Virus record (IMG/VR): IMGVR_UViG_3300006802_013621
Coordinates: 1-20,477 of that record
Length of the DNA stretch: 20,477 nt
Origin: a virus
Direction: 5' to 3' (one strand)
Positions 5,256-17,592 of the stretch are shown one piece after another. Each line of letters begins with the position of its first letter. Positions within the stretch are counted from its first letter, which is position 1. A program made the translations under genes and the position numbers. A model generated the notes under the pieces. It did no database searches. It was not told the DNA's origin and worked only from the letters and a program-made list of their open reading frames with translations.

Positions 5256-5593
5256 GACTTAATAAAACACAACAATATGCTATTCGCTGGATGGTATCTC
5301 AAGGTAATGAGATAGCACAAATTGTGAAAGAACTAAAAATTCCAGCAGACTCAGTAAATAGATTTGTAGAGAAAAATTGTAACATTAATACCAATAATAC
5401 TATCCCAACAACATCTTCTCGCGTCAAAGCCAAAGATTTAATGATTAGAAATACTTCTTCTAAACAAATCAATAATGTTGCTATTATGACTAGGGAAGCA
5501 TCGGAAATGGGTGATCATTTTAAAAAATCAGCACCAAATACTCAATCCGCTCCACGATACGAGAACAATATTCATAGAATTTATGACAAATAA
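5252..5593 (+). CDS. Hypothetical protein with a possible N-terminal helix-turn-helix
   Basis: 114 residues starting MRLNKTQQYAIRWMVSQ. The ATG at 5252 is supported by AGGGAG five bases upstream and an ATGA overlap with the previous gene. An earlier ATG at 5222 would lie deep inside the previous gene. Residues 4-40 read as two or three helices ending in EIAQIVKELKIPADSVNRF. This has the spacing of a small helix-turn-helix of the kind that senses 'can this element bind here', but the match is by eye. The remainder (Ser/Thr/Asn-rich, about 45-114) looks unstructured. It could be a small DNA-binding regulator. No specific function is assigned. Confidence 0.65.
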   Translation: MRLNKTQQYAIRWMVSQGNEIAQIVKELKIPADSVNRFVEKNCNINTNNTIPTTSSRVKAKDLMIRNTSSKQINNVAIMTREASEMGDHFKKSAPNTQSAPRYENNIHRIYDK

Positions 5594-5999
5594 ATATATC
5601 TCTAAGTACTCAAATAATAAGGAAGTGAGTGCTGCACAATATATAACAGAGATGATTTGTGAAAAACGAGCAAAAATGCTCAAGCTTGATTTGCATTATA
5701 GGTTTTGGACGAATAAAGAATGGGCATCTTATTATAGAAATCAAATAGGATCAGCCAATAAGCTTTTAAAGGAATACGATTGTAGAGCGATTATAAGAGC
5801 GTTAAACAATCCGAAAAGCGTAAAAATTTATTCCTTGAGGGCTCCTCATCTAATTGCTATTATACAAAGTGAGCAAGAACTGATAGAAAAAGAAAATACA
5901 GACCTCAAACAAACATACGAACGAAAAACAGATACAAAATATCTTACAGGTAATTCCAAAAAAAATAACATCATATCCAAACTGAAGGATTTAGAATGA
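5583..5999 (+). CDS. Hypothetical phage protein, 138 residues
   Basis: The likely start is the ATG at 5583, which overlaps the end of the previous gene by 11 bases. Earlier in-frame starts (from 5511) would overlap it by over 80 bases and add a poorly conserved-looking leader. The protein begins MTNKYISKYSNN and carries a helical, aromatic-rich region (about 20-75, including HYRFWTNKEWASYYRNQI). This is followed by a helical stretch with many Glu and Lys, and a basic tail. RFWTNKEWASYYRNQI and ANKLLKEYDCRAIIRAL suggest a DNA- or protein-binding helical domain. I do not recognise a family. Its stop overlaps the recombinase start by four bases (ATGA), so it may be co-expressed with the recombination genes. 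Confidence 0.65.
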   Translation: MTNKYISKYSNNKEVSAAQYITEMICEKRAKMLKLDLHYRFWTNKEWASYYRNQIGSANKLLKEYDCRAIIRALNNPKSVKIYSLRAPHLIAIIQSEQELIEKENTDLKQTYERKTDTKYLTGNSKKNNIISKLKDLE

Positions 6000-7003
6000 C
6001 AATACAAGCAGAAATTAAAAAGACTTTTGGTGACGATATTCTCCTATCTGGTAATTCTATTAAGGAGAAAAAAACAGTTATTATCCCTGTAAGTCCAGCA
6101 TTAGATATGGCATTACAGGGTGGTGTGCCAGAAGGTAGTTTTGTTGTATTAACAGGACAACCAAAATGCGGCAAAACAACAACATCTTTAAGTATTGCTG
6201 CTACAGCACAGGAAGAACAATACAGGGGTTCTCTACCGAATCCTCGACATGTGTACTATCTAAACATTGAAGGTCGATTGAAAAAGAGAGATATTGAAGG
6301 CATAGCAGGATTAGATCTTGACAGATTTACTCTAATTGGATCAGCACAGGGTAAAATCTTACATGCAGAAGAGTATTTACAAATTGCAGAACAGATTATT
6401 AATCAAGAAGCTGGTAGTGTTGTAATTATAGATTCATATTCGGCTTTATGTACAGAAGCAGAAATAACCTCCGAAATGAACAAAATGCAACGGGCTGACG
6501 GAGCAAAGTTATTAGCAAAGTTTTGTCGTAAAGTTGCAAATGTAATTCCAGTAAATAAAAATATTGTGATCGGGATCACCCATCTAATGGGAAATCCAAC
6601 TGGATATGGTGCAGAATTTAAAGAGAAAAGTGGTCAAGCTATTGCTTATCAAACTGATATCAAGATTAGGGCTAAAAAATTTACTCCTTGGTTATTGGGA
6701 AAAGAGAATCATCAAATAGGACAAGAGGTAGAATGGCAAGTTATCTGTTCTGCTCTTGGGCCTCCTGGTGCAACCACAACGAGCTTTATTAGATATGGCC
6801 AAGGAATTGATAAACATATGGAACTTTTTAATTTGGCAGTAGATATTGGCTTAGTACAAAAGGGTGGGGCTTGGTATACGTTTACCACCCTTGATGACTC
6901 TCCAAAATTTCAAGGAGCAGAAAAAGCTAGAGATTTTTTGGTTGAAAACAAAGAAGTATACGAAACCTTAGCTAAAGAAATTAATACTGCACTGGGATTG
7001 TAA
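5996..7003 (+). CDS. uvsX: RecA/UvsX-like recombinase
   Basis: Predicted ATP-dependent strand-exchange protein that forms filaments on single-stranded DNA for recombination-dependent replication and repair. It has 335 residues. Walker A is GQPKCGKT (54-61) and Walker B is SVVIIDSYSAL (141-151). Other RecA-fold features are SPALDMALQGGVPEGSFVVLTG at the start of the core (written here as two pieces: SPALDMALQGG and VPEGSFVVLTG), the strand IVIGITHLMG in the region before the DNA-binding loop, and the C-terminal DIGLVQKGGAWYTF, which parallels the RecA segment ending in GAWYSY. GAAGGA lies six bases before the ATG. Two recombination-like genes follow with overlaps, as expected for a recombination operon. 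UvsX is used as a functional label; orthology to the T4 protein is not shown. Confidence 0.9.
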   Translation: MTIQAEIKKTFGDDILLSGNSIKEKKTVIIPVSPALDMALQGGVPEGSFVVLTGQPKCGKTTTSLSIAATAQEEQYRGSLPNPRHVYYLNIEGRLKKRDIEGIAGLDLDRFTLIGSAQGKILHAEEYLQIAEQIINQEAGSVVIIDSYSALCTEAEITSEMNKMQRADGAKLLAKFCRKVANVIPVNKNIVIGITHLMGNPTGYGAEFKEKSGQAIAYQTDIKIRAKKFTPWLLGKENHQIGQEVEWQVICSALGPPGATTTSFIRYGQGIDKHMELFNLAVDIGLVQKGGAWYTFTTLDDSPKFQGAEKARDFLVENKEVYETLAKEINTALGL

Positions 7004-7410
7004 TGGATATTATAGACCTAGATAACAACATCAAAAAATGGCAATTAAAAGGACATATATCTAAAGCTACTGCAACTAATAAATCTACCTATCATATAAA
7101 GGCCAGAAAGTTATTACATACCATATACCCTACAGTACAAATTTTAGAAGAAGTCCCGATTCCTATTAACAATAAAGAAACACTCTATTTAGATTTCTAT
7201 GTTCCACTATTAAAAAAATGCATAGAAGTTCATGGTGAACAACATTATGAATTTGTTCCTTTTTATCATTCTACTAGACTGCATTTTTTAAAAGCACAAA
7301 AGAAAGACAGACAAAAACAAGAATGGTGTGAGAAAAATTCTATTTCATATATAGTCTTACCATATAACCTAACAACAGACGAATGGGAAAGTAAATTTAA
7401 TGAACACTAA
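7003..7410 (+). CDS. Small Vsr/PD-(D/E)XK-like nuclease
   Basis: 135 residues. The centre reads as a restriction-endonuclease-like fold: a strand with Asp (LYLDFYVP, D64), a second strand ending in an acidic/His cluster (KCIEVHGEQHY, E75, H77, E79, H81), then KKDRQKQEWCEKN and a strand SYIVLPY. The layout, 'D - strand - xHGxxxH - helix with D/K-x-W - strand', is that of Vsr-like and DUF559-like nucleases. It starts one base inside the recombinase stop. A structure-specific or nicking role in recombination, such as junction resolution, is plausible from position but is inference. The catalytic assignment is by eye. Confidence 0.65.
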   Translation: MDIIDLDNNIKKWQLKGHISKATATNKSTYHIKARKLLHTIYPTVQILEEVPIPINNKETLYLDFYVPLLKKCIEVHGEQHYEFVPFYHSTRLHFLKAQKKDRQKQEWCEKNSISYIVLPYNLTTDEWESKFNEH

Positions 7411-7882
7411 GGATAAAGTTAAAGAATGGGATGATATTCTTGATGAGTATGAAAAATCAATAGGATTGCCATCATATAAGAATGATCAATTTGCTAATGA
7501 AGAATTAGAACATTATTTTTCTATGGATAGAAAGATATTGGAAAATATGAGTCCCCAAGACTGTGGAGAAATAGCATATAGATTAGGACAATTTAGTTTT
7601 CATGTTCAAAGAAGCCTGAATAGAGAACTTGCTAGAGTAAATTGGGCAGACGAAACTATTAAAGAAACTATAGCAGATGAGCTTAATTCATACAAGGGAT
7701 ATGGATATGTCGAAAAATCAGCACAAGCTATTAAGCATAACGATAACGCTACTGCTCTAAATAAGATCAAAAAATACGCCAAAATGAGATCTGATAGATT
7801 ACAATATATGGCCAACGGTATAAAAAATCTTTCGGATATTCTTCTCAATATACAAAGGAGTAAACTCAAACATGAGCAATAA
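7400..7882 (+). CDS. Helical protein, candidate UvsY-like recombination mediator
   Basis: 160 residues, almost entirely predicted helix, with no Cys motif. The middle (SFHVQRSLNRELARVNWADE, about 70-90) followed by YKGYGYVEK and then a long helix (KYAKMRSDRLQYMANGIKNL, about 125-144) recalls the organisation of phage recombination mediators. T4 UvsY has an Arg/Asp-rich helix with a Tyr-rich turn and a final helix with LQYW. The similarity is weak and the main argument is position: directly in the recombinase operon, overlapping the nuclease gene by 11 bases. If correct, it would help load the recombinase on SSB-coated single strands. It could equally be an unrelated structural or replication accessory protein. 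Confidence 0.55.
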   Translation: MNTKDKVKEWDDILDEYEKSIGLPSYKNDQFANEELEHYFSMDRKILENMSPQDCGEIAYRLGQFSFHVQRSLNRELARVNWADETIKETIADELNSYKGYGYVEKSAQAIKHNDNATALNKIKKYAKMRSDRLQYMANGIKNLSDILLNIQRSKLKHEQ

Positions 7883-10840: not shown

Positions 10841-11421
10841 TTATAGCCTTTGCTGGACGTAAACAATCTGGGAAAACTAGTGCTTGTGAATTTGTAAGAA
10901 ATGTTTTTGTAAATACCAAACATGAAATTGCATGTATATATAATTTTGCTGATCCTCTTAAGCAGCTTTGTCAAAATATATTGGGTCTTAGTTATGATCA
11001 ATGTTATGGTACAGATGACCAGAAGAATGAGTTGGTAAATTGTTATTGGGATAATAAACAGCTTTCTGCCAGAGAGGTTATGCAAATAGTTGGAACGGAC
11101 ATGTTTCGTAAAATGCAGCATAATGTATGGGCTGATGCTACTATTAGAAAAATCCAAGATGAAAAACTTCCATTGGCCCTTATAGCAGATTGTCGTTTCC
11201 CAAACGAGGTAGATGCTATTAAAAATGCTGGGGGATTAGTAATCAAACTACACAGAAATCTGTATAATTCAACCCATGCTAGTGAGCAGGCACTAGATGA
11301 AGAATGCTATGATCAATCCAATTTTGACTTGGTTATCAATAATCAGGATATTGATATCACAACAAAAAATAAAACTATCCTTAACTTCTTAATAGAAAAA
11401 GAGGTGATATCATTATCATAA
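10837..11421 (+). CDS. Deoxynucleoside monophosphate kinase
   Basis: Predicted to phosphorylate dNMPs to dNDPs, completing the nucleotide supply route begun by the deaminase and reductase. 194 residues with a P-loop GRKQSGKT (7-14) right at the N-terminus, NFADPLKQLCQ (about 37-47), the family motif AREVMQIVGTDMFRKM (about 77-92), and LIADCRFPNEVDAI (about 117-130). These are characteristic of phage dNMP kinases (T4 gene 1-like). The ATGA overlap with the primase and AGAGGA six bases upstream fix the start. Its last codons contain the ribosome-binding site of the next gene (GAGGTGAT at 11401-11408). Confidence 0.88.
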   Translation: MIIAFAGRKQSGKTSACEFVRNVFVNTKHEIACIYNFADPLKQLCQNILGLSYDQCYGTDDQKNELVNCYWDNKQLSAREVMQIVGTDMFRKMQHNVWADATIRKIQDEKLPLALIADCRFPNEVDAIKNAGGLVIKLHRNLYNSTHASEQALDEECYDQSNFDLVINNQDIDITTKNKTILNFLIEKEVISLS

Positions 11422-11463
11422 CATATTTCCGTAGCTCATCATATAACACACACAATATGTGTG
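11401..11463 (+). promoter_or_regulatory. Translation start region of the RecB-like nuclease: strong SD and a hairpin over the first ATG
   Basis: GAGGTGAT at 11401-11408 matches eight consecutive bases of the anti-Shine-Dalgarno complement. The best-spaced codon is ATT at 11412 (seven bases after GAGG), in frame with the nuclease. The first in-frame ATG (11457) has no purine-rich site before it. It is also folded into a small perfect hairpin, CACACA (11449-11454), loop ATA, TGTGTG (11458-11463). Both features argue against the ATG and for a non-AUG start near 11412. Confidence 0.6.
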
Positions 11464-12455: not shown

Positions 12456-12487
12456 GTACATGTTCATCCATTTTACCTTTTCTAAAT

Positions 12488-12527
12488 TATAATGGTGTAA
12501 ATGATAATGTAACCATTTAAAGGAGGT
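12488..12527 (+). promoter_or_regulatory. Leader of the HNH homing-type gene: possible -10, inverted repeat and strong SD
   Basis: The 75-bp gap between the nuclease and the HNH gene holds TATAAT at 12488-12493, without a good -35. It also holds an inverted repeat AATGGT (12491-12496) / ACCATT (12512-12517) overlapping it, and a near-perfect Shine-Dalgarno AAAGGAGGT (12519-12527). The inverted repeat could be an operator or a small hairpin in the leader. A self-contained leader is typical of freestanding homing endonuclease genes. Promoter activity is uncertain. Confidence 0.4.
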
Positions 12528-12533
12528 ATTATG

Positions 12534-13253
12534 ATGGGTAGAAAAATAGAAAACGGAAGATATACTAAATGCTATAGCAAAATTTTAACAAAAGAATATC
12601 TTGAAACAGAATATCCTAAAAGGGGTTGTTATGCCATAGCTCACGAACTCGATATGAATGTTAAAACAATATATAATTATTTAGAATACTACAACATACC
12701 ACGAGATAGAAAATCTAGATCCCAAATAAAGAGTGGGGATGTCTATGGTTTACTTACTATGGTTGAAAAATCAGGAAAACTTAAAAACGGCACAATAAAA
12801 TGGAAATGCAAATGCGTGTGTGGTAAAGAAACAACAGTTCCTGCAAGTAGAATCAAAGCAGGCAAAGTAAAAAGTTGTGGGTGTTTAGTAAAAAATAAAT
12901 TTGGACAAAAACATCATAAATGGACAGGATACTGTGGAATATCTGGGTCAAGATTAGCAGATATCAAAATAAGGGCCAAAAAGAAAAATCTAGAGTTTGA
13001 CCTTGATGCACAATTCTTATGGGAAATATTTATAAAGCAAGACAGAAAATGTGCTATTACTGGGAAAGAATTGGACTTGACACAAGATGGCTCTGTAGAT
13101 AGAATAGATAGTAGTCGTGGCTACACAAAAAATAATGTGTGGTGGGTCACAAAAGACATTAATAAAATGAAACTAGACTTTACTCTTGATTATTTCATAC
13201 ATCTTTGTGAAATGGTCGCAAACAATAAGGAGAAAATAAAAGATGGGCGTTGA
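12534..13253 (+). CDS. HNH homing-type endonuclease with N-terminal helix-turn-helix
   Basis: A freestanding homing-type nuclease, 239 residues. It begins with a DNA-binding helix-turn-helix (about 16-56; YAIAHELDMNVKTIYNYLE). A four-Cys zinc-binding segment follows (C92, C94, C96 and C115/C117; SRIKAGKVKSCGC), common in phage homing enzymes. The C-terminal HNH core has C173-AITG, SVDRID (D189, D192), GYTKNNVWW (N200, N201) and N210-K-M-K. In this subfamily the usual first His is Asp. Two ATGs are available (12531 and 12534). The second is better spaced from GGAGG. It has its own leader and sits exactly between the RecB-like gene and the polymerase gene, whose start it overlaps by 11 bases. 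Insertion next to a conserved polymerase motif containing a stop codon suggests that motif is its target (see findings). Confidence 0.85.
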   Translation: MGRKIENGRYTKCYSKILTKEYLETEYPKRGCYAIAHELDMNVKTIYNYLEYYNIPRDRKSRSQIKSGDVYGLLTMVEKSGKLKNGTIKWKCKCVCGKETTVPASRIKAGKVKSCGCLVKNKFGQKHHKWTGYCGISGSRLADIKIRAKKKNLEFDLDAQFLWEIFIKQDRKCAITGKELDLTQDGSVDRIDSSRGYTKNNVWWVTKDINKMKLDFTLDYFIHLCEMVANNKEKIKDGR

Positions 13254-15138
13254 GCGTCGTTATGTGCCGCTACACGTCCATTCTTGAGTGTCACACTACT
13301 CACTCTTGGATGGACTTAGCAAGCCAAAAGACATTGTTAAAAGATGTCTGAGTATTGGAGCATCTTCTTGTGCTATTACAGATCATGGTTCGATATCCGG
13401 GGCTGTGCAATTTTATAGTGAACTTAAGAAGAATAATATTAAACCAATTCTTGGTTGTGAACTATATATAGCAAAAAAAGACTGTAAAGATAAGAGTAAA
13501 GACAATGCCAAATTAGAACACTTGGTGGTATTGGCTAAAAATCTAAAGGGATGGAAAAATTTAATCAAGATAGTATCAGCATCTAATCAACCAGATCACT
13601 TTTACCACAAACCACGACTAGATTTAGATAGTCTTGGAGATTTGTTGGACGGAAACATTATTGCTATCACAGGACACTTGGGATCGACACTAGCAAATAG
13701 AATCATACATAACGATAAAATATCGGAAGATTGGAAAAAGCAATCCCTAAGCCACATAGATCATCTGCACAATATATTTGGCAAAGACAATGTGTTTCTA
13801 GAAGCCCAATTAATAGATAAAGAAGTAAATCCGATTCAAATAGAATTAACCGATTGTATTAGGTCTGTAGGACATGATAGCAATACAAAGGTAATTTGCA
13901 CTCCAGACGCACATTATGCTAATCAAGCAGATGCTGTCGATCAAAGGATCTTGTTATGCAATAACATGAGAACAACCCTATCTGCGATAAATCATAAACT
14001 ACAAAATAATATTGAGGTTGGATTATCTTGTTTTTTTAATAGTGATAAATATTATATTCCTTCATCTGAAGAAATGTTTGATCTTCATTCAGAAGAAGAA
14101 ATAGAAAATACTATTTATGTTGATAGCTTGTGTGAAGAATACGACATATTAAGTCAGCCTATTTTACCACCATTTAATTATCCAAGTAAATATAAATCAG
14201 ATTCTGATTATCTAAGGGATCTTTGTAGAACAGGATGGAGAAAACACGAATTAAACAAATTAGACAAAGAAGCCCAAGATAAATATGTTCAAAGACTAAA
14301 ATATGAATTTGATGTTTTACATGGCGCTAATCTCTCTAGTTATTTTTTAATTGTTCAAGATATAGTTAGTTATATTCGTCAATCTAATTGGCTTCCAGGA
14401 CCAGGAAGAGGAAGTGCTGCTGGCTGTCTAGTGTCATATTTATTGGGTATAACTTCCATAGATCCAATGAAATATGACCTTATGTTTGATCGATTTTATA
14501 ATGCTGGAAGAAATACTAAGGATCGTGTATCCATGCCAGATATTGATATTGATGTTCCTATTGACAAAAGAGAGCATATTATTGATTATATAAAAAAGAC
14601 ATATGGTAATGATAAGGTTTCTCAAATGCTAACTTTCAATACCATGAAAGGTAGGGGATCGTTAAAAGATGTTCTTAGGGCATATGGTAATATATCTTTT
14701 GAGGATATGAATAAAATTACTAAGAATATTCCAGACGAGGCTAAGATTTCAGACGAATTACAAGAAATGAAAAAAGAACATGGAGAAGCATCGATTATTA
14801 AATGGGCTTTAGAAAATAAAGGACAAGACTTGAAAGAGTGGTGTTCATTAGACGAAGAAGGTAATCTTACAGGCCCCTTGTCAAAGAGGTTTGAACAGGC
14901 TATTAGATTAGAAGGAACCAAAACAAATCAGTCTAAACACGCTGCTGGTGTAGTTATCGCACCAGAGGCCCTTAATAATATTTGTCCTATGGTTTATGAT
15001 ACAACCAATAAAAATTTAATAGCTGGCATGGAAATGCAAGATTTAGAGAGTATTGGTGTTATTAAATTCGATATTCTCGGAGTTGCCGTTCTTGATAAGA
15101 TTATGAATATTTCAGATATATTACGAGAAGGAGTATAA
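13243..15138 (+). CDS. dnaE: DNA polymerase III alpha subunit, N-terminal half (PHP and catalytic palm), with an in-frame TGA at 13285-13287
   Basis: Bacterial-type replicative polymerase, first half. ATG 13243 is preceded by AAGGAG (13228-13233) and encodes MGVERRYVPLHVHS, the start of the PHP domain. A TGA follows, and the frame then resumes with HYSLLDGLSK after two extra codons (GTG TCA). The other PHP metal ligands are kept (TDHGS, GCELY, EHLVVLAKN, PDAHY), unlike E. coli. The palm shows GPGRGSAAG, PDIDID (Asp codons at 14539, 14545 and 14551) and IKFDILG (Asp codon 15070), so the catalytic Asp triad is complete in this half. The protein ends just after that last Asp strand, and the fingers are encoded at 15991-17592. 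Starting at GTG 13288 instead would delete HVH and has no Shine-Dalgarno site. Confidence 0.85.
13276..13315 (+). promoter_or_regulatory. Stem-loop spanning the in-frame TGA of the polymerase gene
   Basis: The 5' arm GTCCATTCTTGAGTG (13276-13290) pairs with the 3' arm CACTCTTGGATGGAC (13301-13315): eight base pairs including one G-U, a 2x2 U-U internal loop, five more pairs, and a ten-base loop (13291-13300). The TGA (13285-13287) lies in the 5' arm at the internal loop and apical stem. In the 9-base-shorter coding sequence the apical GAGTG strand would be absent. A hairpin around a take-off codon and stop is a known element of ribosome bypassing in T4 gene 60. A role here is inferred. Confidence 0.6.
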
Positions 15139-15141
15139 AAA

Positions 15142-15324
15142 ATGAAATTTAAAGATTTAGCAGTTGGGGACATTTTTGTTAAACAAGACCAAGCTGCTCA
15201 ATATAAAAAGGTTCCAGAGCAAAGGGTCAGTTGTTGCAAAATCAAAGTTAACGCTATACGTCAAACAGATAATGCTCAAATAGTTTTTCGTCCACTAGAC
15301 GAGGTTGTAAAAATTGAAAAATAA
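15142..15324 (+). CDS. Small conserved-looking phage protein, 60 residues
   Basis: It begins MKFKDLAVGDIFV, the opening of a short beta-rich domain seen in many small phage proteins (lead strand, 'VGD-x-F' turn, several strands). The ending is VFRPLDEVVKIEK. There is a Cys pair (SCCKIKVNAI, about 30-39), but not enough cysteines for a ribbon. AAGGAG at 15128-15133, eight bases before the ATG, makes the start certain. It lies three bases after the polymerase N-terminal half and overlaps the exonuclease, so it is probably made with the polymerase subunits. The function is unknown. An accessory or assembly role in the polymerase is only a guess from position. Confidence 0.75.
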   Translation: MKFKDLAVGDIFVKQDQAAQYKKVPEQRVSCCKIKVNAIRQTDNAQIVFRPLDEVVKIEK

Positions 15325-15994
15325 AATATGTATCTTCGACTTTGAAACAGATGGCAAAGACCCTTCGGTTTGTAGCCCTGTGCAATTAGCTGCTGTAATG
15401 ATAGATCCAGATAAGCTAGAAATTGTAGAGAATTCTGAATTCAATATTAATTTTAAGCCAGAATTATTAGAGCAAAATCCAGATCATCAATATGACACAG
15501 ATCTATTAGAGTTTCACGCTAAAGCACAACAATGTGCCGTTGGTGATATTATAGCCAAATGGAAAGAATATCCAAACCAAAAGCAGTCTTGGACACAATT
15601 TGTTAATTATTTAGATAAATATCATTCCAGAAGCTCTAAGAAAAGCATATTTTCAGCACCAATTGCAGCTGGATATAATATCTTACGTTTTGATATGAAT
15701 ATAGTCGATAGACTTGCTATTAAATATAAGAATATTGGTAAAGATAAAAGCAATAATATTTTTCATCCTAGAGACAAAATTGATTTGATGCATTTGATGT
15801 TTTTATGGTTTGAAGATAATGACGAAATAAAAAGTTTATCATTGGATAATATGAGAGATTATCTAGGCATATCAAAAGACAAGGCTCACGATGCATTAAA
15901 AGACGTACACGATTGTGCTTCTATACTAATACGGTTTTTGAGATTACACAGAAATCAAGCAAAGAAAATAAAATTTAGGAATTCTTTTGCATGA
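15314..15994 (+). CDS. DEDDh 3'-5' exonuclease (DnaQ/epsilon-like proofreading subunit)
   Basis: Predicted proofreading exonuclease of the DnaQ fold, 226 residues. All five catalytic residues are visible: D9 and E11 in FDFETDG, D127 in NILRFDMN, H192 and D197 in HDALKDVHD (H-x4-D). The only usable start is TTG 15314, because a stop lies two codons upstream in frame. GAGGT at 15301-15305 provides the ribosome site. It is encoded between the two halves of the polymerase III alpha subunit and overlaps the second half by four bases (ATGA). The natural reading is a polymerase-exonuclease complex made in equal amounts. No clamp-binding motif was identified by eye. Confidence 0.88.
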   Translation: MKNKICIFDFETDGKDPSVCSPVQLAAVMIDPDKLEIVENSEFNINFKPELLEQNPDHQYDTDLLEFHAKAQQCAVGDIIAKWKEYPNQKQSWTQFVNYLDKYHSRSSKKSIFSAPIAAGYNILRFDMNIVDRLAIKYKNIGKDKSNNIFHPRDKIDLMHLMFLWFEDNDEIKSLSLDNMRDYLGISKDKAHDALKDVHDCASILIRFLRLHRNQAKKIKFRNSFA

Positions 15995-17592
15995 CAAAAT
16001 ATTTTGAATATAAGAAGTGTGGATGTAAATTTCCATTGGATTCTGCTGGTAACATTGTTTTCGATCCAGATATTTTAAAACTTAATCTAGACTGTAAAGC
16101 AACGTGGGATTTGATTGGAACCGGAAACACAAAGGGATGTTTTCAGTTGGAATCTCGTTTAGGTAGAAGTATGGCAAAGAAACTAAAGCCAGAAAATATC
16201 GAACAGCTATCAGCACTTATTAGTATTATGAGGCCAGGATGTCTTGAGGCTGTTAGAGATGGAAAAACAGTTAGTAATCACTTTATAGACAAGAAAAATG
16301 GATTAGAGTCTGTTGATTACTTTCACCCGTCTCTAGAGCCAATATTGTCTAATACTTTCGGTGAAATGGTATATCAAGAGCAGGCAATGCAAATAGCCAA
16401 AGACTTGGCTGGATTTAATTTGCAAGAAGCAGACATGCTTAGAAAAGCTATTGGTAAGAAAAAAGCCGATGAAATGTCTAAATTAAAAGACAAATTTCTA
16501 TCTGGATGTAAAAGAGTCAATCTTATTTCACAAGATCAAGCTGACCAAATATTTTCATGGATCGAAAAAAGCCAAAGATATTCTTTTAATAAAAGCCACG
16601 CTGTTAGTTATGCTATGAACGCCTATTTATCAGCATTTAGTAAAGCTCATTTTACCAGAACATTTTTTGCTTCTTATTTAAAGTTCGCTAAAGATAAAAT
16701 AGATGCACAGCAAGAAATCAAAGAATTAATTCAAAATGCATCTCAAATGGATATTCAGGTATCAACTCCAGATATTAGAAAACTTAATAGATATTTTGTA
16801 TTAAGAGATAAAATCATCTATTTTGGTTTAACAGATATTAAGGGTGTGGGACAATCTGTATTTAATAAGCTGCTCACGCTAACTGATGAAAATAAATTAC
16901 AAACAATGAAATGGCCCGAAATGCTATTAAATGTATTATTAGACATTAACAGCACTGCTGTAAAAGGCTTGATTTCTTCTGGTGCTATGGATCATTATGG
17001 ACACACAAGAAACACTATGTTATTTGAATATAGTCTTGTGTCTGATTTAACAAAAAGAGAAATAGAAATATGTAAAGAATATATTACTGAAAAAACCATT
17101 AAAGATATTCTTAAAAAATTGTCTATCTCCAAAATTACTTCTAGAAGAAAGAGCATAATAGACAATCATATTAAATCTATAGAAAAACCTCCATTTGATC
17201 TATCTGATACCATTGAATGGATTGCTGATAAAGAATATGAATTATTAGGATACTCTTTATCGTGTTCTAGGATTGATATGTTTGATATTACAAATGCCAA
17301 CTGTACATGTTCTGAATTTTTAAAAACCACCAAACAAGATATTATTATAGCAGGAGAGATAGAGTCTATCAATATTGTTAAAACAAAGTCTGGTAAGCAC
17401 AAGGGGGCGGATATGGCATTTATAAGCATTTCTGATAATACTGGACTGTTAGATTCTGTCATTGTTTTTCCTGAGGCATATAGATCTTATCAAAATATAT
17501 TATTCAATAATAATATCGTAATTATTAAAGGATCTAGATCTAAAGAAAAGGATGGATTAATAGTAGACAAAATTTTTATACCACAAGCTTGA
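15991..17592 (+). CDS. dnaE: DNA polymerase III alpha subunit, C-terminal half (fingers, HhH and OB fold)
   Basis: Second half of the split polymerase, 533 residues. After a short N-terminal piece with a Cys cluster (KKCGCKFPLD, about 8-17), it joins the DnaE sequence at GNTKGCFQLESRLG, equivalent to the E. coli segment TAVFQLES. It continues through IMRPG, HFIDKKNG, VYQEQAMQIAK, ADMLRKAIGKKK, SFNKSHAVSYAM and LTDIKGVG (helix-hairpin-helix), ending in an OB-fold (AGEIESINIVKTKSG ... VFPEAY). No catalytic Asp is needed here because all three are in the first half. The ATG overlaps the exonuclease stop, and TAGGA lies ten bases upstream. There are no split-intein sequences at either junction, so the two chains must associate without ligation, or in another way not visible here. 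Confidence 0.9.
   Translation: MTKYFEYKKCGCKFPLDSAGNIVFDPDILKLNLDCKATWDLIGTGNTKGCFQLESRLGRSMAKKLKPENIEQLSALISIMRPGCLEAVRDGKTVSNHFIDKKNGLESVDYFHPSLEPILSNTFGEMVYQEQAMQIAKDLAGFNLQEADMLRKAIGKKKADEMSKLKDKFLSGCKRVNLISQDQADQIFSWIEKSQRYSFNKSHAVSYAMNAYLSAFSKAHFTRTFFASYLKFAKDKIDAQQEIKELIQNASQMDIQVSTPDIRKLNRYFVLRDKIIYFGLTDIKGVGQSVFNKLLTLTDENKLQTMKWPEMLLNVLLDINSTAVKGLISSGAMDHYGHTRNTMLFEYSLVSDLTKREIEICKEYITEKTIKDILKKLSISKITSRRKSIIDNHIKSIEKPPFDLSDTIEWIADKEYELLGYSLSCSRIDMFDITNANCTCSEFLKTTKQDIIIAGEIESINIVKTKSGKHKGADMAFISISDNTGLLDSVIVFPEAYRSYQNILFNNNIVIIKGSRSKEKDGLIVDKIFIPQA

Follow-up and report, generated by a model that had tools for sequence, protein, structure and literature searches.

The gene for a DnaE-type DNA polymerase in a virus record from IMG/VR (IMGVR_UViG_3300006802_013621; "the window" below is this whole stretch of 20,477 bases) is interrupted near its start by an in-frame stop codon. 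The best reading of this interruption, to which we give a probability of roughly 80%, is that an endonuclease gene was inserted at the start of dnaE and that ribosomes would now cross the resulting gap by a short programmed bypass directed by an RNA hairpin. The element recurs in about 55 distinct IMG/VR sequences, constantly at the same codon junction. In the window it extends from approximately 12456 to 13315, wider than the 13243-13320 given in a first-pass annotation made from the sequence alone; its parts, described below, all lie on the + strand.

An interrupted polymerase gene and its relatives

The lead open reading frame (ORF), MGVERRYVPLHVHS (13243-13284), runs for 14 codons from ATG 13243, ends in PLHVHS and supplies the HVH motif of the PHP domain; HVH aligns with LHQH in the PHP domain of Thermus-type Pol III alpha (2hpi). 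It has a good Shine-Dalgarno sequence, as the first-pass annotation had noted: AAGGAG at 13227-13232, and AAGGAG-type sites are similarly found in most relatives. The last codon of the lead, TCT 13282-13284, is the proposed take-off codon, and the in-frame TGA immediately 3' of it (13285-13287) breaks the PHP motif right after HVHS. HYSLLDG then resumes in the same frame, and the downstream ORF (13294-15138) encodes the remainder of the N-terminal half of DnaE, comprising the PHP domain and palm (PF02811, 2e-35; PF07733, 2.5e-72; phrog_405, 4.5e-154).

The proposed skip covers the nine bases 13285-13293, as indicated by alignment to uninterrupted relatives: the TGA, a GTG (13288-13290) and the landing codon TCA (13291-13293). 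Seven of these relatives (L001-L007), 81-84% identical to the window, read ...PLHVHTHYSLLDG without a break (HVHTHYSLLDG), so that deleting the nine bases, which gives HVHS-HYSLLDG, restores the native length with no residue extra or missing, just as had been predicted. The segments TDHG, GCELY and DAHY, which we take to carry the other PHP ligand positions, are retained in nearly all element-bearing dnaE genes, in agreement with the earlier view that the remaining metal ligands of the PHP domain are intact.

A comparison with close relatives, which the first-pass annotation had proposed as a check, gave both forms of the locus. Using the downstream protein alone as the query, so that the stop codon played no part, we found the same interruption in 13 of the 80 nearest IMG/VR relatives, in the shared form Y-[VIT]-P-L-H-V-H-S, stop, short gap, [HM][YF]SLLDG. 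A pattern scan of IMG/VR returned 78 stretches, redundant copies included, all of which resolved to the dnaE element, and two further scans with HCH and GAC variants of the pattern added L160 (HCHS) and L161-163. Because the interruption is present in many independent contigs, we rejected an assembly error, a doubt that had been raised over the nine bases.

The scan of genome contigs yielded a single true match, the phage-like contig L167 (RFVO01000077.1), and five chance matches. L167 is binned in a Chitinophagia metagenome-assembled genome, a weak hint of a Bacteroidota host. INPHARED contained no DNA match to the element, that is, none among its isolated phages, and the protein relatives there are at most 35% identical. 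A covariance model of the element (R1) found no convincing copies in other genes of the examined loci; the low scores that it gives to native dnaE starts reflect codons shared with the element. A literature search of open-licence papers found no account of bypassing in dnaE.

We measured the gap from the stop up to the codon preceding [HME][YF]S, which makes the proposed skip 6-12 nucleotides across the family. For the 55 distinct sequences, gaps of 3, 4, 5, 6, 7, 8 and 9 nucleotides occur in 1, 2, 3, 12, 17, 19 and 1, respectively, and the remainder modulo 3 is 0 in 14, 1 in 19 and 2 in 22, so that all three frames are represented. The stop lies directly 3' of the take-off codon in every one (TAA in 29, TAG in 23, TGA in 3), and the lead varies from 13 to 20 codons, ending in PLHVHS.

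With gaps in all frames and all three stops in use, neither readthrough, nor one type of frameshift, nor reinitiation at a GTG can explain the set. Reassignment of the stop codon (TGA read as Trp, for example) was rejected on the same two observations. Readthrough, which the first-pass annotation had named as a rival, would serve only the 14 frame-0 gaps. It can be extended to a composite of conventional recoding events, with readthrough at frame-0 gaps, -1 frameshifting at gaps that leave a remainder of 2 modulo 3 and +1 frameshifting at those that leave 1; every such event would add a few residues. A stop followed by a hairpin does look like a stimulator of readthrough or frameshifting, and in 25 of 38 distinct cores no further stop closes the transit frame. 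However, three mechanisms would be needed among close relatives: the sister sequences L105 and L115 have gaps of 8 and 9 nucleotides, and one clade mixes 6, 7 and 8. A second stop also blocks the +1 route in 3 of the 11 cores where it would apply, no slippery heptamer was seen, and the products would carry varying residues in a conserved metal-site loop. We regard such a composite as very unlikely.

A covarying hairpin around the stop codon

At the interruption lies a hairpin of about 40 nucleotides, missed by the first-pass annotation, with an outer stem of 8 bp and an inner stem of 5-8 bp. In the window, the 5' arm of the outer stem, GTCCATTC (13276-13283), includes the first two bases of the take-off codon and is the same in nearly all element loci; the 3' arm, GGATGGAC (13308-13315), consists of the dnaE codons L-D-G-L. 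The outer stem thus encloses the take-off codon, pairing the V-H codons and its first two bases with L-D-G-L. The inner stem pairs GAGTG (13286-13290), which holds most of the stop codon, with CACTC (13301-13305), part of the dnaE sense codons S-L. A 51-nucleotide segment of the window folds at -19.6 kcal/mol, with a z-score of -5.1 on the sense strand and -2.2 on the other, and none of 200 shuffled sequences folded as well. Chance was rejected as an explanation of the element on the strength of this z-score and of the junction being the same every time.

The fold is a property of the family. The gap folds against the following dnaE codons in 36 of the 38 distinct cores, and only L141 and L161-163 lack a stable hairpin. 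Most often the sequence takes the form GUCCAUUC-Y-U-[AAGUGAA-loop-UUCACUU]-UU-GGAUGGAC, and the mean fold energy is -18.8 kcal/mol for elements against -6.4 kcal/mol for native dnaE starts. Two registers are seen for the inner stem, whose arms covary (TAACGA/TCGTTA, TAGTGA/TCACTA, TAGCGA/TCGCTA, TAGAGA/TCTCTA and AAGTGAA/TTCACTT). Its arms pair better with their own than with permuted partners, the observed value being reached in 0 of 5,000 permutations; likewise, none of 500 shuffle controls reached the observed covariation score or number of cells paired. Among the first six inner pairs, G.U occurs 21 times and A.C never, which fits the expectation for sense RNA.

Sequence outside the inner stem is also associated with the element. 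ATGGAC, in the 3' arm of the outer stem, is present at 50 of 60 element loci and at 9 of 53 native loci. Phylogenetically independent contrasts, 11 in number for ATGGAC, favour its association with the element by a mean of 8.9 to 0.3 (median p 0.004); for a TCA or TCG serine codon the corresponding figures are 8.5 to 1.0 (median p 0.02).

A hairpin between short direct repeats, often TCT...TCT, could in principle promote template jumping, and the gap might then be removed from the RNA, by RNA polymerase jumping or by processing or splicing at the hairpin, before any ribosome met it. The gap of T4 gene 60 may itself derive from a group I intron (PMC5009743). Against removal at the RNA level, Rfam 15 gave no match at gathering score within the window, introns and ribozymes included; the gap is merely 3-9 nucleotides with variable ends; and the stop codon is kept throughout, which would be needless if the ribosome never encountered the gap. 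We consider this the least probable of the alternatives weighed here.

The position of the landing codon follows the hairpin. In 34 of the 36 hairpin cores (gaps of 5-9 nucleotides) it starts 0 or 1 nucleotide past the last paired base of the inner 5' arm; being at the top of that arm, it makes the length of the hop follow the length of the stem. The codons seen there are TCT, TCA, ACT, GCT, TCC, GCC, TTT, TCG and, in L117, TGA, a range so varied that this codon is evidently not read as an ordinary codon. In 22 of 55 sequences it is the same as the take-off codon or could be decoded by the tRNA of that codon; in the remainder, the tRNA-Ser of the take-off site would still form about two of the three pairs. 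Landing codons never include AGY or ACG, which 24 of 55 natives use. In the hairpin-less variants the two codons are identical: TCT-TAA-TCT in L141 and TCG-TAAA-TCG in L161 (L161-163). The earlier proposal that matched Ser codons determine the hop is correct only in part: the two Ser codons match in some relatives only, it is the covarying hairpin that appears to set the hop, and two pairs or so out of three with the take-off tRNA seem to suffice at the landing codon.

Selection on the flanking codons provides another view of what is translated. Across 42 distinct lead-plus-loop sequences, the ratio of nonsynonymous to synonymous polymorphism (pN/pS) is 0.043 for the PLHVHS lead codons and 0.19 for the two loop codons, or 0.037 where the first of these is His. 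The loop codons are mostly H or M and Y or F, as in natives. Purifying selection on both sides of the gap suggests that both sides are probably translated and joined. The same amino-acid selection on the [HM][YF] loop codons led us to reject landing on the TCN codon of the 3' arm, which would give HVHS-LLDG.

These results bear directly on termination followed by reinitiation, in which the 14-codon lead would be released as a peptide and DnaE would restart at GTG 13288 (in the window) or at the TTG of LLDG, yielding a polymerase either lacking HVH or complemented by the peptide. Coupled reinitiation is common in phages. Shine-Dalgarno-like bases are present in the gap (GAGTG, AGGTGA), some variants with gaps of 5, 6 or 9 nucleotides have an in-frame GTG, and TTG is found at the second position (L2) of LLDG in 56 of 60 loci. 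Nevertheless, roughly half the variants lack an in-frame ATG, GTG or TTG ahead of LLDG. The first-pass annotation had listed GTG 13288 as a possible restart, and we rejected it as a general answer, the GTG being absent from most relatives. We also rejected the TTG as the start: CTG replaces it in three variants (L145 has CTG even at LLDG), and the constant base in hairpin-bearing variants is the third-position G that pairs with the C of the take-off codon. In other words, the bias toward TTG arises because the outer stem keeps that third-base G. Reinitiation would moreover leave the [HM][YF]S loop codons untranslated, yet these are strongly constrained at the amino-acid level, and initiation alone needs no covarying hairpin around a stop. 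Of the alternatives, reinitiation is the least improbable, and we still judge it unlikely.

The proposed bypass and its counterparts

The first-pass annotation had suggested a short programmed bypass, and this reading is supported: it is the only single mechanism we considered that fits all variants, with their different frames and stops. According to the mechanism we propose, a free-standing HNH homing endonuclease gene would insert repeatedly at the start of phage dnaE, just past the PHP HVH codons, and the insertion would supply a replacement start consisting of a Shine-Dalgarno sequence, an ATG and 13-20 codons to PLHVHS, followed by a stop and a few extra bases. A ribosome initiating at the replacement ATG would arrive at the Ser codon with the stop in its A site and the hairpin pressed on it, and the hairpin would presumably exclude release factors. 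Peptidyl-tRNA-Ser would then detach and re-pair with the codon atop the 5' arm of the hairpin, 6-12 nucleotides on (9 in the window), and translation would resume as HVHS-HYSLLDG, producing a full-length N-terminal half of DnaE with an intact PHP motif.

In a stronger version of this model, no nascent-peptide signal takes part and the hairpin would be the sole determinant of both take-off and landing. The dnaE elements would then form a class of natural hops: peptidyl-tRNA would pass from base to apex of the hairpin, the hop would be as long as the stem arm and the frame could drift freely in evolution. We rate this version an even bet.

Several observations weigh against a hairpin-directed bypass. 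Landing codons are often mismatched (ACT, GCT and TTT, besides the TGA of L117), the landing codon sits inside the hairpin, where the route of the peptidyl-tRNA to it is unclear, and the landing-codon trait has few independent contrasts (approximately 3 to 0, not significant). The lead has only 13-20 residues, and a nascent-peptide signal of the gene 60 type, which acts about 25-30 residues from the P site, would have no room. Finally, most variants were found with a pattern that fixes PLHVH[ST]-stop and YTN-GATGG, and the invariance of these parts in that set is to some degree a product of the search; the bias does not touch the 13 loci retrieved through the downstream protein.

The closest known system is bacteriophage T4 gene 60, the single well-studied bypass on bacterial ribosomes, for which reviewers have long expected shorter counterparts (PMC5009743). 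There, the take-off codon stands immediately before a stop, termination is blocked by a small stem-loop in the A site, and peptidyl-tRNA lands on a matched codon 50 nucleotides on (PMC11194080, PMC5009743, PMC3014915). The likeness to gene 60 that had been remarked on initially is closer than was noted, since in the window the gene immediately upstream encodes a probable homing endonuclease. Both systems have a stop immediately after the take-off codon, an endonuclease gene inserted nearby and an interrupted phage enzyme of DNA metabolism (PMC5009743, PMC3014915, PMC11194080); in both the stop lies within a take-off stem-loop that takes in sequence 5' of the take-off codon, and the landing codon pairs with the peptidyl-tRNA, features that for dnaE are predicted. 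The differences are considerable. Gene 60 skips 50 nucleotides, whereas the dnaE skip is 6-12 nucleotides, with length and frame varying among relatives; the gene 60 codon is Gly rather than Ser, while in dnaE the landing codon falls within the hairpin and is frequently an imperfect match; and gene 60 is reported to be unique among T4-like phages, whereas the dnaE element occurs in many lineages. The nascent-peptide signal of gene 60 has no equivalent in the short dnaE lead, and therefore we do not class the element as a gene 60-type element proper. Judging from sequence comparison, it works like programmed bypassing and probably is a new form of it, short and directed by a hairpin.

In T4, the ancestral gene was split by mobA, which encodes an HNH endonuclease, and the gap is possibly a protection against cleavage by that enzyme (PMC5009743, PMC2988022). 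The mobA cassette and the dnaE element share an HNH endonuclease gene adjoining the bypass, endonuclease-free relatives that are uninterrupted, an insert that may protect the target (PMC5009743, PMC2988022) and a patchy, mobile distribution. Unlike mobA, the dnaE endonuclease gene overlaps the replacement start, and many phages retain the hairpin after its loss. Nicking and inheritance have been studied in the laboratory for mobA; the dnaE counterpart is a predicted endonuclease.

Two other systems are comparable in the size of the hop. In synthetic 'stop-hop' constructs (Weiss et al. 1987, as summarized in PMC5009743), nine nucleotides with matched codons around a stop were decoded as one amino acid, and L141 has exactly this arrangement, TCT-TAA-TCT; those were laboratory constructs, whereas the dnaE elements occur in nature, are conserved and in most cases look hairpin-dependent. 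The mitochondrial byp elements of Magnusiomyces capitatus are likewise short inserts corrected by the ribosome with imperfect landing matches (PMC5009743). They differ in being mitochondrial and seemingly independent of mRNA context and in using an unused codon, and no covarying hairpin containing a stop has been described for them.

The endonuclease gene, the surrounding locus and significance

The gene directly upstream is a free-standing HNH-type endonuclease ORF of 240 amino acids (12531-13253), matching PHROG HNH and endonuclease VII-like families (best E 1.7e-21); Pfam gave no match for it. From its sequence it is probably a homing endonuclease. Its stop codon, TGA 13251-13253, overlaps the dnaE lead, and leads across the family mostly begin M[GD][VM], in keeping with overlap of the last codons of the endonuclease. 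Full-length copies occupy the same place in L040, L087, L091, L096, L107, L116 and L136, and fragments were found in L054, L097/113/128/148, L119/134 and L167 and, by eye, in L083 and L117; the copies at this place, full-length or partial, show 57-71% identity. Most element loci have lost the endonuclease gene, and the hairpin has been kept in many phages.

No endonuclease copy adjoins a native dnaE, except at L076, where a C-terminal fragment (7-231) lies directly before an uninterrupted dnaE start (HCHS-MLSLLDG). L076 is perhaps a locus that lost its hairpin. More distant copies of the same endonuclease family, mostly at 28-40% identity, occur at other gene borders in these phages: upstream of the PDDEXK nuclease gene in L096, L113, L128, L130, L140, L145 and L149 and downstream of dnaE in L105 and L076.

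Traces of the earlier dnaE start appear to survive. In the window, comparison identifies GTACATGTTCAT (12456-12467), stranded past the PDDEXK gene, as a probable remnant of the pre-insertion 5' end of dnaE (compare native ...TTACATGTTCAT in L001), and L136 has a fuller remnant of a native start, ATGAAAAATTATATTCCTCTCCATGTACATGCTCACTAA (MKNYIPLHVHAH, then a stop), upstream of its endonuclease gene. The label switches between element and native 15 times on the DnaE tree, at least 11 of these being forced by starred branches, with gains and losses indistinguishable. The recurrent pattern is best explained if the HNH gene has been inserted repeatedly at the dnaE start.

We made several further observations on the locus. 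The PDDEXK gene seems to start at ATT 11412 (IITYFRSSSY..., with Shine-Dalgarno sequence AGGTGA), overlapping the TAA of the preceding gene (11419-11421); several relatives have ATG at the position equivalent to 11412, and the automatic start at 11457 is probably wrong. In L160, a phage contig, two CRISPR-like arrays and an ORF lie between the PDDEXK and dnaE genes (5580-7700). The first array (5580-5866) has five 37-nucleotide repeats or partial repeats at 65-66-nucleotide spacing, the 539-amino-acid ORF (5888-7507) resembles TnpB/Cas12f by eye (CPKC...CQCG), and the second array (7500-7697) has a different repeat. DnaE in the window is itself split into two ORFs (13243-15138 and 15991-17592) that break after the KFDILG palm motif and cover phrog_405 positions 51-616 and 623-1077, with a DnaQ-like exonuclease gene (RNase_T, 15314-15994) between them. 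No intein motif was seen at this split, and the N-terminal half is 608-621 residues long in most complete relatives.

If the hop is real, it would be the first widespread natural counterpart of the T4 gene 60 hop, in a large family of uncultivated phages. The approximately 55 natural variants, which differ in hop length, frame, stop, stem sequence and landing codon, form together with their uninterrupted controls a ready mutational series on the requirements of ribosome hopping. Annotation pipelines will miscall the N-terminus of such polymerases and lose the PHP HVH motif. The element would also show how a selfish endonuclease can settle in an essential polymerase gene.

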